Of a DNA stretch of 42,210 nucleotides, positions 16,681 to 26,248 are shown one piece after another. The translations under genes were made by a program, and so were the position numbers. The stretch lies in IMG/VR virus record IMGVR_UViG_3300031730_000011, positions 1 to 42,210 of that record; one strand, given 5' to 3'. The DNA is from a virus. A model generated the notes under the pieces. It made no database searches, was not told the origin of the DNA, and worked only from the letters and a program-made list of their open reading frames with translations. Numbering within the stretch: position 1 is the stretch's first letter; each line of letters begins with the position of its first letter.

Positions 16681-18036
16681 TCAACTCCCCACGAGATAAA
16701 TCGCCGGAATAGACCCGGTCCCATCTGTCGTGGGGTTCCCCGTTGCCGGCAACGCACTGCCAGAGCCCGCCGCATATCGATGGCTGATGAGCGTCGTATT
16801 GTTCACCGTCCAGCCAAGCGATTGCTGAATGCCTCCTACCGCCAACGCGCGAATAGTCGCGGCGGCGGAACAGATTACCGAGGCCCAATATAGGGTCCCG
16901 GCGGTCAGAACCAGGCTCGCAGCGGCGCTTTTGTCGCCAGTGGTCGACGTATCGAGGCCAGTGACGGAGACCAATAGCGCGTTCGGCGCGTCGTCGCCGC
17001 TGACCACTTGATTGCTGTAGATGCCAATCGCCGCAGTTCCAGCGAGCAGGGTCGTCACAGAGATTTTCAGGGCTGTGAGCGTCACGTCCCTTGGAACGCT
17101 GAAAGGAATGAAGAATTGGCGAGAGGCCGTCATCGCGAGCGTAGTTAGCGCTGTCCCATTCTCGGCCCCTACGATCTTCGGCGTCGCGTTGCGCCTGGCC
17201 CAAGCTAATCCGCTCGGTCCCGTGGCGCCCTGCACGCCCTGGGCGCCTGTCGCGCCCTGAATGCCTTGGATACCCTGCGGTCCTTGCGCACCAGCGGCGC
17301 CAGTGGCGCCTTGCGCTCCAGCAGCGCCGGTCAATCCCTGAATGCCCTGTGCGCCGGTATCCCCCTTGTCGCCCTTTGCCCCCGTTGCGCCAGCGGCACC
17401 GGTCGCGCCCGTCGCACCCGTCGGCCCAGTTGCCCCGGTGTTACCCGTAGGGCCTGCCACGCCTTGCGGCCCGGTCAGACCCGCCACACCTGGCGCGCCA
17501 TCGGCGCCGGCCGGTCCCGTTGCGCCTTGAACGCCCTGCGTCCCCTGAGCACCGGTCAATCCCGTATCGCCCTTCAACCCTTGCGCGCCAGCCGCGCCCG
17601 TGGCACCGGTCGAGCCTATCGCTCCCGTTGGCCCCGTCGGACCGGCAGGTCCTATCGCGCCGGTTGCGCCCGTGGGTCCCGCTGCACCGGCATCGCCTTT
17701 GTCTCCCTTCGCTCCAGTGGCTCCAGCGGGACCGGTCAGCCCGATCGGCCCCTGAGCGCCGCTCGCGCCTATGGATCCCGCGACACCATCGGAACCATCG
17801 GCACCCGTATCTCCGCGATCGCCTTTCGAGCCCTGCGCGCCCGTATCTCCCTTCGGTCCCTGCGGCCCTTGTGGGCCTTGCGGTCCGGTCGATTCCAAAT
17901 CCACGCAATGCTGAGAGAGCGTCGCCAGGCGCACATAGCGGGCCATGCCTGGGCGCACGATCAGCACCATATCGTCATCATCGACCTGTGGCGCAATCTC
18001 CTCGGCCGGTATCCACCGCTTCTTGCCATTGCTCAT
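16681..18036 (-). CDS. Collagen-like fibre protein, 451 aa
   Basis: Residues about 50-275 are nearly unbroken Gly-X-Y triplets with frequent [15 protein letters not shown] and KGDTG. An N-terminal 48-residue module precedes them, and a C-terminal beta-rich domain (about 280-451) with SFFIPF-like and NTTLISHRY stretches follows. Such proteins make trimeric fibres on phage heads or tails. It is inserted between the head-closure and gp10-like genes and could be a head or collar decoration that binds surfaces. The sequence is lower complexity than its neighbours. Confidence 0.85.
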
Positions 18037-18840: not shown

Positions 18841-19319
18841 ACGCCCAACGCAATCCGGTAGGGCCACAGCAGCGCTTCGGCACGCGTCTCGAGCAGTTCG
18901 AAATTATCCGTGTTGCGATCGAAGAGCGATTCCATGTAAAGCAGGATCGCTGCATAGACATCGCGGCGCAGAGGCCTCGCTTGATCCTGGTGGATGGGAT
19001 TATTGGCCCAATAGGTTTGCCAATGCTGCGTAGTCCAAATCGACTGCGGCCAATCAAGCCATTCGGGCCGCGGCAGCGGACAGTTCCAGGGTGGCGGATT
19101 GGGCGAATCGACCGGATCGGGCGCCGGCGTCTGATCGGAATCACGCGGGCTATCCAATTCCATGAGCTCGGCGAGCGATCGCTGCGTGAAATTTTCGGCC
19201 CAGTCCTCCGCCGCGCCGATCAGTTTCTTGATGCGCGTATCGTGGATCGTTAACCCGTCGTCAATCGAAAGCTGCGCTTTCGCGTCCGCCAGAGTCACGT
19301 AGGTTCCGAGATTGCTCAT
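18837..19319 (-). CDS. Head-tail connector (gp6-like), 160 aa
   Basis: Begins YVTLADAKAQLSIDD and AAEDWAENFTQRSL, the typical start of phage head-tail connector proteins (adaptor ring under the portal). It has a Pro-rich insert (about 60-100: PAPDPVDSPNPPPWNCPLP), then the C-terminal AILLYMESLFDRNTDN helix. It would join the portal to the head-closure ring. Confidence 0.85.
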   Translation of the reverse strand: MSNLGTYVTLADAKAQLSIDDGLTIHDTRIKKLIGAAEDWAENFTQRSLAELMELDSPRDSDQTPAPDPVDSPNPPPWNCPLPRPEWLDWPQSIWTTQHWQTYWANNPIHQDQARPLRRDVYAAILLYMESLFDRNTDNFELLETRAEALLWPYRIALGV

Positions 19320-20047
19320 CGGTAGTGTTCCTCAATCCAGCGATGTTTACGCCTCACCTGGGCCTGCCATGGGTCCGAGTGTCCGTGCATGACGACGAGC
19401 CTGCAGGTCGGCGGAAGCACTCCGCCGCGCGGTGCGATCTCATTGCGATAGGAATAGATGCCATCGACGTGCGTGAACTTCGGCTCATTCGGCCCAAGAC
19501 ATGCACCGATCCACGCCTGATCTGAACCGATATAATGTTTCGCCAAGCCTAAGAGCGGGGACTTCTTCGGATCGAACTTCTCCCAAAGCTGACGACGTGT
19601 GCCGGCCTTGTGCAAGATCAGCGAGCCGTTGTATGGAGTCCCGCGCGCGGTGTCGCCGTACATTTTGAAATCAACATCTACATTGAAGAGTTCAGTAATA
19701 TCTCCCGTGATCACGACGTCGAGATCAATAGAGACAAACCGCGGACCGATGAACTCCGCCGCTTCCTTCGAGAACATCTTCAGGCGCCGATAGCAACTCG
19801 GGTTCCCCCGGCCGTGCGGCGATGGAACATTCTTGAAGTCGTCCCACAGTTTGATGATGCGCACGCGTTCGTCAATGCCGGCCGCGTCATCCGTAATGCA
19901 GACGAGCTCGTGCGGCTTTTTATAATGCCGCTCCAGCATTGAGCGCAGGACATTGACAGTGGCCGCGGAGAACTGCGAGCGATAGCCCGTCGGGGCTACC
20001 CATTTCCAGCAGACAAAAACCAACGGAGGCGCGTGACCGTTCAGCAC
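19316..20047 (-). CDS. Glycosyltransferase, GT8-like, about 243 aa
   Basis: Start taken at GTG 20047 (GGTGAG ahead); TTG 20092 is a weaker alternative. Features: VFVCWKW early, ITDD, a DxD-like IDLDVVITGD (metal/sugar-nucleotide site), and SDQAW. These match GT-A enzymes that transfer sugars from nucleotide sugars. First of six modification genes inserted between the capsid and connector genes. Acceptor unknown. Confidence 0.75.
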   Translation of the reverse strand: MLNGHAPPLVFVCWKWVAPTGYRSQFSAATVNVLRSMLERHYKKPHELVCITDDAAGIDERVRIIKLWDDFKNVPSPHGRGNPSCYRRLKMFSKEAAEFIGPRFVSIDLDVVITGDITELFNVDVDFKMYGDTARGTPYNGSLILHKAGTRRQLWEKFDPKKSPLLGLAKHYIGSDQAWIGACLGPNEPKFTHVDGIYSYRNEIAPRGGVLPPTCRLVVMHGHSDPWQAQVRRKHRWIEEHYR

Positions 20048-20760
20048 TGGCTCACCAAATGATAAGGAAAGGTCAGGCGCAGCGGCCTCCAATTGGGAAT
20101 AAGGGCGCGCTCCGCTTTGATTTTGGGAATCCCAATGGCATCTTGCGGCTGCTTGCGCAAATAGGTCGTCGTCGAGGCATCAGGAATCGTTTCGCGCGGG
20201 ACGCGGGTCAGTAGCGCGCCCAGGATCTCGATGCGGGCATGCGCCGCGAGCCGATCCCGGAACTCTGCATCCGTACCGTAATATCCGGCGAAGCGCTCAT
20301 CGTATCCACCGATTGTCTCGTACATGGCGCGCGTCATGAGCCACGAGTTCGGGTGCGGCTTATAGGGCGTCTCATGCCAGGGATCGAGCGATTCCAGCGT
20401 GGTGCGATTGAATCGATAGACCGAATATTTATCGAGCTGGCGTGCAAGGACTGTCTCGAAGGTCGCCTGCGGCACGAGGTGATCGATGTCCGTGAGCAGC
20501 ACCCAACCGTGGGTCGCATTGGCCACGGCGATATTACGCGCCGCATCTTGATTCCAACGGATATCGACCTCGATCCGAAAAATCCGCACCGGCATCCCAA
20601 TCTTGCGCGCCTTCGCGGGACCGTCCGGCGATCCATCGTCGACCACAATCAATTCCAAATGAGATTTGATCTGCGGCGGCAGTTGATCGAGCCGCGAAAG
20701 CTGCAGCGCGAGCATTCCCGCGTTCCGATAATACGGCAGGCAGAGCGTCACGCGGCGCAT
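20041..20760 (-). CDS. Glycosyltransferase family 2-like, 239 aa
   Basis: Start ATG 20760; upstream in-frame sequence is a shadow of the next gene. Shows VTLCLPYYRNAGML, LIVVDDGSPDG (nucleotide-binding loop), RNIAVANATHGWVLLTDIDH (DxD equivalent) and GGYDERFAGYYGTDAEF. A GT-A fold sugar transferase. Its 3' end overlaps the next gene by 7 bp. Confidence 0.85.
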   Translation of the reverse strand: MRRVTLCLPYYRNAGMLALQLSRLDQLPPQIKSHLELIVVDDGSPDGPAKARKIGMPVRIFRIEVDIRWNQDAARNIAVANATHGWVLLTDIDHLVPQATFETVLARQLDKYSVYRFNRTTLESLDPWHETPYKPHPNSWLMTRAMYETIGGYDERFAGYYGTDAEFRDRLAAHARIEILGALLTRVPRETIPDASTTTYLRKQPQDAIGIPKIKAERALIPNWRPLRLTFPYHLVSQC

Positions 20761-21374
20761 TCGGCCCCCACCAGGCTCGCAGGGTCGATCCTGGGCCAGC
20801 GTTTGATCGGCGAACTGCTCGAACAGATCGCAACGGAGATCCCGACGCGCTCGAGCTGAATGGCAGCCGTATCGAACTGCCTCGACCACTCAGCAAGTTT
20901 CCCGGCGCCCGATCCACCTCCACCTTTCCACGGATAGTTGGGAAACCAATGTCGTTCACCTCTTGGTCCGAGTGCCATATCGAATCCGACGAGAAAAAGC
21001 TTTTGTGGCCTCATCTGGTAGGCCAAGTTCAGCGCACAGAATCCTGAGTTTGTCCCGTGAAGCGTTCCTCTCTCGTCGCTCAGCACGGTCGCTTTGTGGT
21101 CGTTCTCGAATAGATGTACGTGCTTCAATTCCCTCGGATCGACATTCTTCATGGTCGATCGACGCAGGAAGATCGCGCGCGTCGTGCTCCGCTCGATCAG
21201 TGCCCATCGATTCTCCGCCCATAGTCGATCCATGGAGACGCAAATATCCCAGCGCGGCGCGTAGTAGGCCGCATCGTTCACGGCAATCACCGTACCAGGG
21301 AGCTTGCGCAGATCGACTTTCGAGGCCGACCACCCGCCGGCGAGCACGGTCACTTGTTGGTATGGGCTACTCAC
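20748..21374 (-). CDS. DUF115-like protein, 208 aa
   Basis: Begins VTVLAGGWSASKVDL, then VIAVNDAAYYAPRWDICVSM, then NSGFCALNLAYQM and KLFLVGFDM. The arrangement (GGWSxS loop, D-x-x-W, GFD) is shared with the protein at 23185-23697 and with the DUF115/MAF-type group found near flagellar and polysaccharide glycosylation genes. Role unknown; likely a sugar or nucleotide-binding enzyme. GTG 21374 overlaps the upstream stop. Confidence 0.72.
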   Translation of the reverse strand: MSSPYQQVTVLAGGWSASKVDLRKLPGTVIAVNDAAYYAPRWDICVSMDRLWAENRWALIERSTTRAIFLRRSTMKNVDPRELKHVHLFENDHKATVLSDERGTLHGTNSGFCALNLAYQMRPQKLFLVGFDMALGPRGERHWFPNYPWKGGGGSGAGKLAEWSRQFDTAAIQLERVGISVAICSSSSPIKRWPRIDPASLVGAECAA

Positions 21375-22009
21375 CGCGCCTCCAGAAGCAGCGTCGAGAA
21401 TTTGGCGCCCTGATAAACCGTGTCGAGGAACTGGAACGCCATCCGCAGCTCATCCTCCCATTCCGGCTTGTTGCGCCTCACATCGACGATTAACTTTGTA
21501 TGGTGCGCGACAGAGCAGCGTCGCACCAACGGCAAATAGGTCGATGGTTCGAAGTGAAAGCACCAGGACCGGAAGCTCACGATGAGATCGACTTTGCGGT
21601 CAATGGCATATTCCGGCGCGCTCGCATCGATAAAATCGAAGTACTGCACGCCGTTCGAGGCTAAAAAGCGTTTCGCGACATCCATATCATTGAAGGTCTC
21701 CGAGTGCAGATCGACCACGGGCCGATCGGCAACGCCGTCGAGCAGCGTCACCAGGCACTCACCGCCGTAATGCTGATTGAGCAGCGCGTCGATGCCGCCC
21801 AGTCCCGAGCCCACATCGAGGATCGTGCGACAGTCCTTCGGCAGATACGGCTCGATCGCATCGAATTCGCTATAAAGAGAATTCGTATAGTGTTGCAGCC
21901 AGACTGCAGGGTCACTCGCGGCGAAATCAGAGATCGCGCCGCGCTGCAATTGCAAGAACGGATAGGCCTCGAGCGGCACGGTTAATCCTTGATCGCGATT
22001 GAGGCTCAT
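21371..22009 (-). CDS. SAM-dependent methyltransferase, 212 aa
   Basis: Start ATG 22009 overlaps the upstream stop (ATGA); longer readings into 22010-23092 are shadow. Motif I is ILDVGSGLGGIDAL (about residue 65), followed by LLDGVAD and FDFIDAS. A class I methyltransferase of unknown substrate; the setting suggests methylation of a sugar or surface protein. Confidence 0.82.
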   Translation of the reverse strand: MSLNRDQGLTVPLEAYPFLQLQRGAISDFAASDPAVWLQHYTNSLYSEFDAIEPYLPKDCRTILDVGSGLGGIDALLNQHYGGECLVTLLDGVADRPVVDLHSETFNDMDVAKRFLASNGVQYFDFIDASAPEYAIDRKVDLIVSFRSWCFHFEPSTYLPLVRRCSVAHHTKLIVDVRRNKPEWEDELRMAFQFLDTVYQGAKFSTLLLEAR

Positions 22010-23181
22010 GGTTTTGTCGCCACGATCTTGATGTCCTTGGATTGTGGCGGACTCACCACGCCTACGCTCCAGCCATTTGTCATTAGCTTGCCCACCCACC
22101 AATCGGCTGGGTGAACGGAAAGGTGGGCATTGCGTCCATCGGGCAAGATCGCATTGGCCGGTCTTGTCGAAATGACGAAATAGCCGACTTTGCCGGTGAT
22201 GCGATAGAGGTGATCGAGAACGGCGTCGAGCTTTTCTGGCTCCACATGCTCGAGCACGTCCGTGCAAACGACCAAATCGCACGGTTTCGGCATCTTGGCG
22301 CGCTCGGGGATCCCCGGATCGTAGCCCGAGACGCGAATCGGCTTGAGCGATTCGGCAAGGCGGTTTTCTCCGCACCCATAGTCCAGGATCGTCGCCGGCG
22401 AGAATTCCTGGATCAAATCGCGAACCGCGGAGGTATGTTTGGCGCCGTCCGCGCCCCAGGTGCGCTTGCGATGAAGTTCCGTGAGCTGGCCGCGATAGAA
22501 GTCGCTCGTGAGATCCCGCTGCGCGTACCGATAGGCGCCGGCGTGCCGCATGAACATCCCGATATGGCCGAGGTCGAGCGCATGGATGCCCTTGCGGGAC
22601 AATCGATAGGCGAGAACCGTCGCAGCCGTTCCCAGGCAGATGAGCACGGTCCCCTGCGCCTTCCCGACGGCGTTCTCGATTGCACTGAGCTCCGAATAGG
22701 CATGCTGGCGCGAGCCGATGACCTCGCGAACAGAGCGCGCTTCGGCGCCGATCATCTCCGTCGTGATCGATTTCTTGTCGCCGACCACGAGCGTGATGTC
22801 GCGATCCCTCCAGAGCGCGCGCACTTTCTCCCAATATTCCGGCGTATCGATCCACGGCGCGTTGTCGGGACGTGTGATGAAGCTCGAATAAAACTCGCCG
22901 GCTCCCAGCAAGGAGGTGTATTTCTGATCGCAGTACCGCGCCCAGCTCTCGGCGCGCGGACAGCCTGTAAACGGATTCGGGATCCCAACCATGAGTTGAG
23001 GTGTTGTATTGCGAAGGATCAACTGCAATTCTGTGGCCATTTTCCGATCCGGATGCTGAGAAGTGCAGCCGCCGCCGACCGCACATCTCCACTCACCATC
23101 CCCGAAGCGGGCGATCGAGCGCGTCTGCATCGCCTCGATGGTGCGCATCTCATCGATGATCTTGGGATACTTAAGCGCCAC
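22006..23181 (-). CDS. Two-domain protein: GT-D-type glycosyltransferase + methyltransferase, 391 aa
   Basis: N-terminal half has RFGDGEW, the hallmark of the DUF1792/GT-D sugar transferases, plus LVVGDKKS, LICLGTAATVLAYRL and ALDLGHIGMF. The C-terminal half (from about 260) has ILDYGCGENRLAESL and VCTDVLEHV, a class I SAM-dependent methyltransferase. A direct fusion suggests the same glycan is extended and capped by methylation (inference). The ATG start has no clear competitor. Confidence 0.8.
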   Translation of the reverse strand: MALKYPKIIDEMRTIEAMQTRSIARFGDGEWRCAVGGGCTSQHPDRKMATELQLILRNTTPQLMVGIPNPFTGCPRAESWARYCDQKYTSLLGAGEFYSSFITRPDNAPWIDTPEYWEKVRALWRDRDITLVVGDKKSITTEMIGAEARSVREVIGSRQHAYSELSAIENAVGKAQGTVLICLGTAATVLAYRLSRKGIHALDLGHIGMFMRHAGAYRYAQRDLTSDFYRGQLTELHRKRTWGADGAKHTSAVRDLIQEFSPATILDYGCGENRLAESLKPIRVSGYDPGIPERAKMPKPCDLVVCTDVLEHVEPEKLDAVLDHLYRITGKVGYFVISTRPANAILPDGRNAHLSVHPADWWVGKLMTNGWSVGVVSPPQSKDIKIVATKP

Positions 23182-23184
23182 GAT

Positions 23185-23697
23185 CTATCCCACGGCCGCG
23201 CGCGCCGCATCGATCTCGATGGGCAGTTCCGCTTCGATCGAAGACTGACGGAAGCATTTCAACGCGGTCTTCCGCGAGCAGTTCACAATGTCGATGCCAC
23301 GTTTCTCGGCATCGATCGCCAGGCCCTGCATCGCCTTCACCCATTGCGGATAGCGCCCACCATTGCCGAGCGTTTTTGGCGGGTGATCGCCGTGCCAGTG
23401 CGTCTTGCCATTCGTGCGCTGAAAGTCGAAGCCCAACAGCACAATCTTCGAGGCGCCCCACAAAGCGGCGAGCCCGATCGCTTGATACCCGCTGTTGTAG
23501 CCAGTATGGATTTTGTCCGGCGTCTTCGAGAGCCCGGGCGAATCGTAGCCGTAAATCCATCGGAGCTTGAACTGGTCGCGCGCCGCGCTCGCGCAGGTCC
23601 ACATTTCCGAGCCGCGAAATGTCGTCGCAACCTCCGCAAAGTAGTGCTGCCACCATGACGCATCGCAGCCGTAGAGCACATCCGCCCAGGGCGCCAA
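23185..23697 (-). CDS. DUF115-like protein; conserved N-terminus lies upstream in the same frame
   Basis: First conventional start is TTG 23697 (171 codons with stop). The same frame continues upstream with no ATG/GTG/TTG to about 23940 and encodes RWAGATVAIIASGPSLTRQD, a motif expected at the N-terminus of this family, then KIIVINTSFRLAPWADVLYG. So the TTG form would lack the nucleotide-binding-like loop. The frame is -1 to the gene at 23721-24086, and a slippery site lies at 23874-23880. A -1 frameshift would give a 300-residue fusion. Confidence 0.75.
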   Translation of the reverse strand: MAPWADVLYGCDASWWQHYFAEVATTFRGSEMWTCASAARDQFKLRWIYGYDSPGLSKTPDKIHTGYNSGYQAIGLAALWGASKIVLLGFDFQRTNGKTHWHGDHPPKTLGNGGRYPQWVKAMQGLAIDAEKRGIDIVNCSRKTALKCFRQSSIEAELPIEIDAARAAVG

Positions 23698-23720
23698 GCG
23701 AAAACTCGTGTTGATGACGA

Positions 23721-24086
23721 TTATTTTGCATCGGGTTCGGCAGAAATCGACGTCTTGACGCGTGAGCGACGGCCCGCTCGCGATGATGGCGACGGTGGCG
23801 CCTGCCCATCGTCCTTCGGTGCCGCCGAGTTTGGGTCTGGAGACAGCGGCGGCTGCGAGTCTGTCTCGGAGACTTTTCCCTTCGTGATCGGGGCTCGAGG
23901 AAACGCTTGATTGCGCTCCGGCTGCAACGTCGGTATCTGCGGCGCATCGTCATCGCGAATGACTTCGATCATGCCGCCCACGCGCTGCAGCTGCTTGACA
24001 TAGCCCTCCTCGCTCCAGAACTGATTGCCGATGCGCATGAAGCCGTAGCGGCTCTGAAAGGATTTCAAGGCTTTCACCTGAATCAT
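23721..24086 (-). CDS. Small structural-region protein, 121 aa; 0-frame product of a frameshift pair
   Basis: ATG 24086 follows a full AGGAGGTGAGG ribosome site. Residues 1-45 form a compact domain (KALKSFQSRYGFMRIGNQFW, then EEGYVKQLQRVGG); the rest is Pro/Ser-rich and basic. It lies between the major capsid gene terminator and the modification island. It shares 5' sequence with the predicted fusion to the DUF115-like frame. Precise role unknown; related phages often have small proteins of this kind beside the capsid gene. Confidence 0.75.
   Translation of the reverse strand: MIQVKALKSFQSRYGFMRIGNQFWSEEGYVKQLQRVGGMIEVIRDDDAPQIPTLQPERNQAFPRAPITKGKVSETDSQPPLSPDPNSAAPKDDGQAPPSPSSRAGRRSRVKTSISAEPDAK
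23840..23880 (-). other. Candidate -1 frameshift signal: G GGA AAA plus downstream hairpin
   Basis: 0-frame codons are AAG GGA AAA GTC, so G-GGA-AAA fits the heptamer rule. Six bases later a 7-bp stem (GAGACAG / CTGTCTC, 23867-23861 with 23846-23840) and 14-base loop could stall ribosomes. Slipping enters the DUF115-like frame, which has no start codon of its own before 23697. Confidence 0.7.
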
Positions 24087-24103
24087 CGGACCTCACCTCC
24101 TAG

Positions 24104-24183: not shown

Positions 24184-25548
24184 TTAGGTGCTGGTCCCCG
24201 ACGGGAACGCACCATAGACGAATGACGCCGGACGAGTCACCGCGAGAGCAACGCGCTCCTCACAGAGAATCGTGACCATATTGCGCACGAAATTGTCTTG
24301 ATCCTCGGTGCTCACCAAGATCTGCGCCTGTTCCCGATCGAAGAGCGTCGCGGCAAGCTTGAACGAGCCGACCATGAAGTCGCCCGCATGAAAGCTGTCC
24401 GACGCCACGACCGGCAGACCCCAGATCATCATCGGCGTGAGTCCGCCGATTGGGCTGGCGAACAAATACCGGTGCTGCGAGTCCTTGGTCAGCATCGTGC
24501 TCCACCAATCTTGCGGGCTCATCACCACGCCGGTCGCCGGATAGAACGCCTGGCGCACCTGCAACATCGCGTGCGCGATCACATCGATGTGCGTGTCGTT
24601 CGCCTTGGCCCCGACTCCGGTATAGGCCGTCGCCTGCGGCACCAGTCCATGAAGGTGATCGCCGGTCCCATCGCCGTAGAGGATCTCGTGTTCCTCGACC
24701 AGCTTCAGGCCGAAATTCAGGCGCGTATCGATCAACGACATGAGCAGCTTGAAGTCCGAGAGGACTTGCTTCGAGGCCTTCATCCAGTGCGCGATCGTGG
24801 TCACCGGCACATTGTTGCGGGTGTAGGTGATGTCGGATTGCGGTTTCAAAGCGCCTTCCGAAACGACCGCCGCGTTGTTGGTGAACACGTTCTCCTGGAA
24901 CCAATAGATCAGATCGCTTTCGGTCGTGCCGATCGACAGCAGATCGCGCACGGTGAGATTCTGGAAGTTCGGAATGACCGGCGTCTGCAAGTACTCTGGC
25001 GTGATGCCGGGGCCACCGGAGACCGGACCGCCCGTGATCGTCTTCAGCTTGAACGGCTTGCTCTGCGCCTTGACGTTCATACGCCCGGTCGGCGCGAACT
25101 CGATGAGCTCCGGCGATTCGGCGAACTGCTGCCCGATCGACTTGACCAGATTGCCGCCGCCATTTGGCGAACTGCGTGCGGCCAGCTTTTGCGACAGATC
25201 GAGAATGATGGCGTTCTGCTTTTCCTTGTACTCCAGGAACTCCGTCATCGTCTTCTGGCCGCTCGTATTGAGCTTGGCGATCTCCTCCTTGGTGCTGTCC
25301 TGGATCGAGCCGAATACCTTGATGTCCTCGGTATGCTTGACGAGGATATCGTCGACCTTTTTGAAGTGCTTGCCGAGCGCCTCGTCGATCGCGGCTTTGA
25401 CCTTGTCGGGTGCAGCTTCGGCTTCCGCGACGGGGCCTTCATGCAGGTAGCTCTGCTCCTGCGAGCGATCCCATTGGAGGGTCGCCATGTCGAGAACGCC
25501 GCGCGTGATGATGCGTCGCGCGACGGACTGAGTAGATTTGCGTGTCAT
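24184..25548 (-). CDS. Major capsid protein, HK97 fold, 454 aa
   Basis: Start ATG 25548 with AAGGAAA ahead; the listed upstream extension is shadow. The N-terminal 130 residues are charged and helical (VDDILVKHTEDIKVFGSIQD), like the HK97 delta domain removed by the protease. The mature part contains LIYWFQENVFTNNAAVVSEG, HWMKASKQVL, EEHEILYGDGTGDHLHGL and MSPQDWWSTM, typical of the family. The terminator directly downstream fits high expression. Confidence 0.95.
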   Translation of the reverse strand: MTRKSTQSVARRIITRGVLDMATLQWDRSQEQSYLHEGPVAEAEAAPDKVKAAIDEALGKHFKKVDDILVKHTEDIKVFGSIQDSTKEEIAKLNTSGQKTMTEFLEYKEKQNAIILDLSQKLAARSSPNGGGNLVKSIGQQFAESPELIEFAPTGRMNVKAQSKPFKLKTITGGPVSGGPGITPEYLQTPVIPNFQNLTVRDLLSIGTTESDLIYWFQENVFTNNAAVVSEGALKPQSDITYTRNNVPVTTIAHWMKASKQVLSDFKLLMSLIDTRLNFGLKLVEEHEILYGDGTGDHLHGLVPQATAYTGVGAKANDTHIDVIAHAMLQVRQAFYPATGVVMSPQDWWSTMLTKDSQHRYLFASPIGGLTPMMIWGLPVVASDSFHAGDFMVGSFKLAATLFDREQAQILVSTEDQDNFVRNMVTILCEERVALAVTRPASFVYGAFPSGTST

Positions 25549-25561
25549 GGAGAAATTTCCT

Positions 25562-26248
25562 TTATGCGATTTTGAAGGATTCAATCTGCGCCAAGACGTC
25601 ATCGAGCGCGATGGCCTCGCTACCCTCTCCACCCCCAGCATCACGCTGGTTGAGGAACTTCGCATACCCAATGCTGGCGATTGCATTGGCCTGCTTACGC
25701 GAGAAGCCGGCAGCATCGCGCAGCAGCTCCTCGAAATCTGAAATGGATGGGAGTTTTCCGCCCATGATTTGCGATTTGATCTGCGTCACCGACGCTTCGA
25801 CGTTCGCCGGGAAGGTCACGATCGAGCATTCCCACAAATCGATCTCCGTGAGCTTCCAGACGTTGGTCTTGCCGTCGTATTCCATGCCGTCTTCCGGCAC
25901 GTCATAGCCGATCGACATGCCGCGAATGGCGCCGGACTTCAGGAGCGCCTGCGCCTCGCGGGCTTTTTTCACGTCCTGGATCAGCAGTTGCCCCTCGACG
26001 TAGAGCCCCTGGCCGTCCTCGGCCATCTTCGTGAACGGCCCGATCGGCTGATCGCTGCGATGCTGCCATAGCACCGGCGGAAGGGCGCCTCGTTCTTTCC
26101 ACGAGGCAAGCGATTTGGCGAACGCTCCGGGCATGACGACGTCCCGATAGGCGTCCGCGTTGCCGAAGATCGAGCCGTAGCCCGCGAAGGCGCCGGAATC
26201 CTCGACCGCCTTGATCTTGAATCCGAACTGACGCTGTTTGAGCTTCAT
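25562..26248 (-). CDS. HK97-family prohead protease, 228 aa
   Basis: ATG 26248 overlaps the portal stop. Core motifs: GSIFGNADAYRDVVMPGAF, LWQHRSDQPIG (catalytic His) and SGAIRGMSIGYDV (catalytic Ser), then EIDLWECSIVTFPAN. It would cut scaffold/delta parts of the capsid protein. The C-terminal 60 residues are an Ala-rich extension typical of scaffolding tails. Order protease-capsid downstream of portal is standard. Confidence 0.94.
   Translation of the reverse strand: MKLKQRQFGFKIKAVEDSGAFAGYGSIFGNADAYRDVVMPGAFAKSLASWKERGALPPVLWQHRSDQPIGPFTKMAEDGQGLYVEGQLLIQDVKKAREAQALLKSGAIRGMSIGYDVPEDGMEYDGKTNVWKLTEIDLWECSIVTFPANVEASVTQIKSQIMGGKLPSISDFEELLRDAAGFSRKQANAIASIGYAKFLNQRDAGGGEGSEAIALDDVLAQIESFKIA

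Follow-up and report, generated by a model that had tools for sequence, protein, structure and literature searches.

Results

Two overlapping frames adjoin the capsid gene

The DNA analyzed here, which we refer to as the window, is an entire virus record of 42,210 bases. On its minus strand, the genes run in the order terminase, portal, protease, and capsid genes, followed by a small open reading frame (ORF) of 121 residues. The major capsid gene (PF05065) spans positions 24184 to 25716 (minus strand) as the longest ORF, the true start probably lying inside this extent. The adjoining small ORF (24086 to 23721, minus strand) begins with an ATG and has a good Shine-Dalgarno site, AGGAGG (24096 to 24101, minus strand). 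A second frame, in the −1 register relative to the small ORF, is open on the same strand from 23949 to 23188 and ends in a TAG stop at 23187 to 23185. This frame encodes an ASGPSLT motif within the overlap (23761 to 23781, minus strand), which is presumably the nucleotide-sugar loop of an enzyme. The enzyme frame contains no ATG, GTG, TTG, or CTG ahead of this motif, and its earliest common start codon, a TTG at 23695 to 23697 (minus strand), lies past the motif and has no clear Shine-Dalgarno sequence.

The small ORF contains the slippery heptamer G_GGA_AAA at 23880 to 23874 (minus strand), in the phase of the zero frame and placed such that a shift would follow residue 71. The post-shift part (23185 to 23874, minus strand; 229 codons plus the TAG) comprises a linker and the enzyme domain, and the predicted product is thus 71 + 229 = 300 amino acids. 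Six bases past the heptamer (spacer GTCTCC) lies a candidate stimulatory hairpin (23840 to 23867, minus strand) with a 7-bp stem, formed by the arms GAGACAG (23867 to 23861) and CTGTCTC (23846 to 23840), and a 14-nt loop. The initial annotation had proposed this arrangement, and our analysis confirms the two-frame layout that it described: the missing start codon, the GGGAAAA in the right phase, both hairpin arms at the claimed spacing, and the length of the fusion were all recovered. The hairpin is the best fold over the initial 34 to 50 nt past the slip site, and its stem is also kept in the related locus L002; however, its detail is uncertain because a different stem wins over stretches of 60 nt or more, and a 61-nt fold of the region gave a z score of only −0.75. 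A second in-phase heptamer, C_CCA_AAC (23835 to 23829, minus strand), is also present in L002 and L040 and may serve as an alternative or additional slip site; slippage there would give a fusion of the same total length.

Farther along the minus strand is a sugar island (19316 to 23181). It comprises a gene that encodes a GT-D fold glycosyltransferase domain together with a methyltransferase domain (22006 to 23181, minus strand), a second methyltransferase-type gene, two glycosyltransferases, and a second gene of PHROG 4603 (sialyltransferase-like; 20748 to 21374, minus strand), the family to which the overlapping enzyme also matches. This second gene has its own GTG start, and the window phage therefore carries one PHROG 4603 copy of the tethered type and one that stands alone. 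In phages D3, Psp6, and PAJU2, the gene cluster likewise has a methyltransferase farther down. Between head-tail connector genes, the window also encodes a 451-residue protein (16681 to 18036, minus strand) that matches collagen-like tail fiber families.

The shift would join a small folded domain to a GT42-like enzyme

The model of the small protein has a confidently predicted domain (residues 1 to 45) and a disordered tail. Searches of Pfam, PHROGs, and the PDB gave no significant answer as to the function of this N-terminal domain. Its top fold match was YqbF of Bacillus subtilis (PDB code 2hjq; RMSD of 2.1 over 47 columns), a match that was not significant (Foldseek probability, 0.97; E value, 0.32). 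The YqbF gene is likewise located directly past a prophage capsid gene. YqbF is not known to have an enzyme extension.

The enzyme domain matched PHROG 4603, which is labeled alpha-2,3-sialyltransferase, with an E value of 8e-49 over positions 1 to 173 of the 178-position profile. Its model (pLDDT, 94.9) has as its best fold match in the PDB the GT42 sialyltransferase CstII (PDB code 1ro7; E value, 4.1e-05; probability, 1.00), followed by human ST6GALNAC2. The enzyme differs from CstII in sequence (~14% identity; TM scores of 0.53 and 0.47), a Pfam search of the enzyme returned no GT42 match, and a profile search against the PDB reached an E value of only 0.28. Because its sequence places the enzyme outside GT42, we refer to its predicted structure as a GT42-like fold. 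The label "DUF115-like" given in the initial annotation was not upheld: PF01973 (MptE-like/DUF115) matched 39 residues and scored 24.6 bits, below the cutoff of 34.6, and the predicted fold is closest to that of CstII.

Overlap and missing start recur among relatives

A search for relatives with the small protein alone found none; thus, relatives were reached through the enzyme and gathered from viral contigs, bacterial genomes, and phage records. The initial annotation had named a normal start codon in relatives as evidence against a shift. Among 87 loci at which the enzyme frame is overlapped by an upstream ORF, 80 had no ATG, GTG, or TTG within 30 codons of the motif and 7 had one, whereas such a start was found in 39 of 42 nonoverlapping homologues. 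Entry into the enzyme from the overlapping ORF requires a −1 shift, and the offset of the startless frames rejects a +1 shift. Phage Psp6 falls within the startless set, as do prophages of Solimonas, Bordetella, Achromobacter, Lysobacter, Pseudomonas mendocina, Methylophaga, Alcanivorax, Filomicrobium, Ensifer, and Omnitrophota. In a protein tree, all 23 members of the window's clade (support, 99/94) are of the overlap type; stand-alone forms are found elsewhere in the tree, and about eight changes of type are needed to account for their distribution. The three nonoverlapping homologues without a common start within 30 codons of the motif are L101, L103, and L107, of which L101 may be clipped by the end of the locus.

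In two relatives, the two parts may be joined without a shift. In L087 (2310 to 3100), a small domain (N-terminal domain match E value, 0.0013) and the enzyme are encoded in one continuous frame just past the end of a capsid-like gene. L065 (2348 to 3076) is perhaps also a single-frame fusion, its N-terminal domain match being weak (E value, 0.7). The L087 protein is of the kind predicted from the frameshift and lends good support to the view that such a fusion would be functional.

Slip sites are concentrated in one phase

Slip sites were compared across 68 nonredundant startless loci sharing less than 85% amino acid identity. Startlessness was also used in picking these loci, and the phase test is independent of it. 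Where both frames are open, X_XXY_YYZ heptamers occurred 54 times in the slip phase versus 7 and 2 times in the other two phases (binomial P of ~1e-17, with relatedness ignored), while heptamers in the enzyme body showed no phase bias (70, 72, and 62). In-phase heptamers and both open frames, for which the initial annotation had proposed a search, are conserved in related phages. The dominant in-phase heptamers were GGGAAAA (15), CCCTTTN (12), and GGGAAAC (4), so that G_GGA_AAA and G_GGA_AAC together made up 19 in-phase sites across the 68 loci; others were C_CCY, A_AAA, and T_TTT sites. Codon choice followed the same pattern, with 19 of 27 Gly-Lys/Asn dicodons in the doubly open stretch written as G_GGA_AAA or G_GGA_AAC versus 2 of ~150 in the enzyme body.

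One universal heptamer was not found, and the exact site varies between clades. Where a good heptamer is missing, most loci instead have C_CCT or C_CCC and some have T_TTT; these sites fit the minimal −1 motif, Z_ZZN (PMC5009743). Three close kin of the window (L004, L008, and L009) had no clear conserved slip site. In L012, L066, and L102, the slip sites contain runs of at least seven A's, on which transcriptional slippage could also act.

Predicted RNA structure lies downstream of many slip sites

RNA 3′ of G_GGA_AAN and A-run sites was more structured than controls (z scores of −1.22 versus −0.24; P = 2e-4). At loci where the slip site lies close by (close-slip loci), the codons for G-R-W pair with those for I-A-S-G. 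At least 8 contiguous pairs in one fixed register were found in 22 of 48 close-slip loci, versus 0 of 13 far-slip loci and 1 of 36 nonoverlapping homologues. Among the close-slip loci listed, the slip codon ends exactly 11 nt ahead of the TGG in nearly all, and the intervening residues vary despite this fixed distance. In a gapless alignment of 15 close-slip loci, 82% of pair cells were paired, compared to 20 to 66% when the register was slid, and the same alignment contained three double changes consistent with covariation. Collectively, the pairing, fixed spacing, and covariation indicate that, in the close-slip class, the predicted stimulator is made of codons that also specify the enzyme motif. 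The window's clade differs in having its slip site farther upstream.

Discussion

These data point to a programmed −1 ribosomal frameshift at this gene pair, a reading to which we assign a probability of about 0.92. Most ribosomes would complete the 121-residue small protein. A minority, having added residue 71, would move back by one base at G_GGA_AAA, probably aided by the downstream hairpin, and would read a short linker and then the GT42-like glycosyltransferase domain, yielding the 300-residue fusion. Because the enzyme frame lacks a start codon, no route other than the slip is evident by which an enzyme with its SGPS loop could be made. Comparison of sequences strongly supports such a shift through the recurrent overlap, the missing start, the in-phase slip sites, the hairpins, and the natural in-frame fusion; slippage in the window phage itself, and its rate, are inferred.

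What the fusion might do is a separate matter. The N-terminal domain may dock the enzyme on the head or on an assembly intermediate, where the enzyme could glycosylate phage parts jointly with the neighboring sugar genes. A virion-tethered enzyme, which the initial annotation pictured at a set ratio, is possible, and we propose it tentatively. We give an even chance to a genuine frameshift without tethering, in which the shift would serve only to keep the enzyme at a low dose, its targets being host or free phage components. Consistent with such dosing, the homologues P1 PmgO and PAJU2 gp10 exist as stand-alone proteins, lytic growth of P1 does not require pmgO (PMC10695390), and the window phage has its second, stand-alone copy. 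However, the partner is a conserved folded domain that is encoded beside the capsid gene and kept in in-frame fusions, which is less readily explained by dose alone, and two stand-alone homologues carry the record label "structural protein," for which the labeling criteria are not given. The in-frame fusions and stand-alone homologues show that some phages do without a two-product ratio.

The remaining alternatives dispense with ribosomal frameshifting. The enzyme could be translated alone from an internal start, either the TTG at 23697 or a nonstandard codon in the overlap; in several records, the annotated orf7 begins past the motif, the PMG1 record annotates the enzyme from an upstream GTG, and D3-group phages keep a GTG or TTG at the upstream place as a possible start. 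Yet initiation at the TTG, besides lacking a clear Shine-Dalgarno sequence, would lose the conserved ASGPSL motif. Of the 68 loci, 58 have no near-cognate codons, and in L027, L125, and L079 only ~14 codons separate the upstream stop from the motif, with no usable start among them. Internal initiation would also leave the phase-specific slip sites unexplained, and we consider it unlikely. Slippage by RNA polymerase rather than the ribosome could supply the extra base step at the long A runs in the three loci noted above, but the slip site in the window has runs of only three G's and four A's, and short G/A or C/T sites, with hairpins a fixed distance away, are the rule in most relatives, making this explanation very improbable. 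Finally, although one missing or extra base would produce such an overlap in a single genome, an indel introduced by sequencing or assembly, or decay of the gene, is scarcely credible because the same layout is found at 87 loci in independent assemblies, cultured phages included, with both frames still open and the enzyme conserved.

If a programmed frameshift is the correct reading, several implications follow. Tail chaperones are the textbook case of phage frameshifting; this would be a second phage gene pair kept by frameshifting, apparently undescribed, and found both among soil phages and among prophages of Pseudomonas, Bordetella, Lysobacter, Rhizobiales, and Omnitrophota. A broader proposal, which is speculative but possible, is a widespread class of phage frameshifts that joins a head-region docking domain to a glycosyltransferase-like enzyme, giving virions or procapsids in which a set minority of the subunits bears the enzyme and glycosylates the particle; a large subclass would shift at one proline codon (C_CCY), the hairpin being formed from enzyme motif codons. 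Through this pair, a connection between glycosylation and the head region of the phage becomes open to testing, and the C_CCY class would allow −1 shifts to be studied at natural single-codon sites. Frameshifting would also explain why GenBank records mostly truncate the enzyme or leave it out, as for D3 orf7 and its kin, which conceals the N-terminal motif. The gene is truncated in the annotations of D3 (L032, 2376 to 3094) and 5399 (L166) and is unannotated in phi1 (L163). We found no earlier report of this frameshift in the open-access literature, subscription papers lying outside the search. The mechanism itself belongs to a known type; what appears to be undescribed in the literature searched is the gene pair, how widely it occurs, and the subclass with C_CCY sites and motif hairpins.

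One close comparison is with orf6.5/orf7 of Pseudomonas phage D3 and its kin, which have the same gene pair and frame relation. Their site, C_CCA_AAG, lies 11 nt before the TGG and is reported to be highly shift-prone in Escherichia coli (PMC5009743). The D3 pair differs in that it is not annotated as a frameshift and a GTG or TTG could start the enzyme frame; this possible upstream start, shared by D3-group phages, makes D3 a less than clean test case, if a convenient one. Two other known systems resemble the window pair without homology to it. In IS3-family orfA/orfB (PMC5009743), a −1 shift likewise joins a binding domain to a startless catalytic domain, although the product is a transposase rather than a phage sugar enzyme. 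Lambda G/GT (PMC5009743) belongs to the tail rather than the head region and adds a tail-protein binder where the window pair would add an enzyme; it is similar in being a phage late gene, in using heptamers of the G_GGA_AAR/AAC type, and in that a −1 shift late in a small ORF yields a minority product with an added domain.
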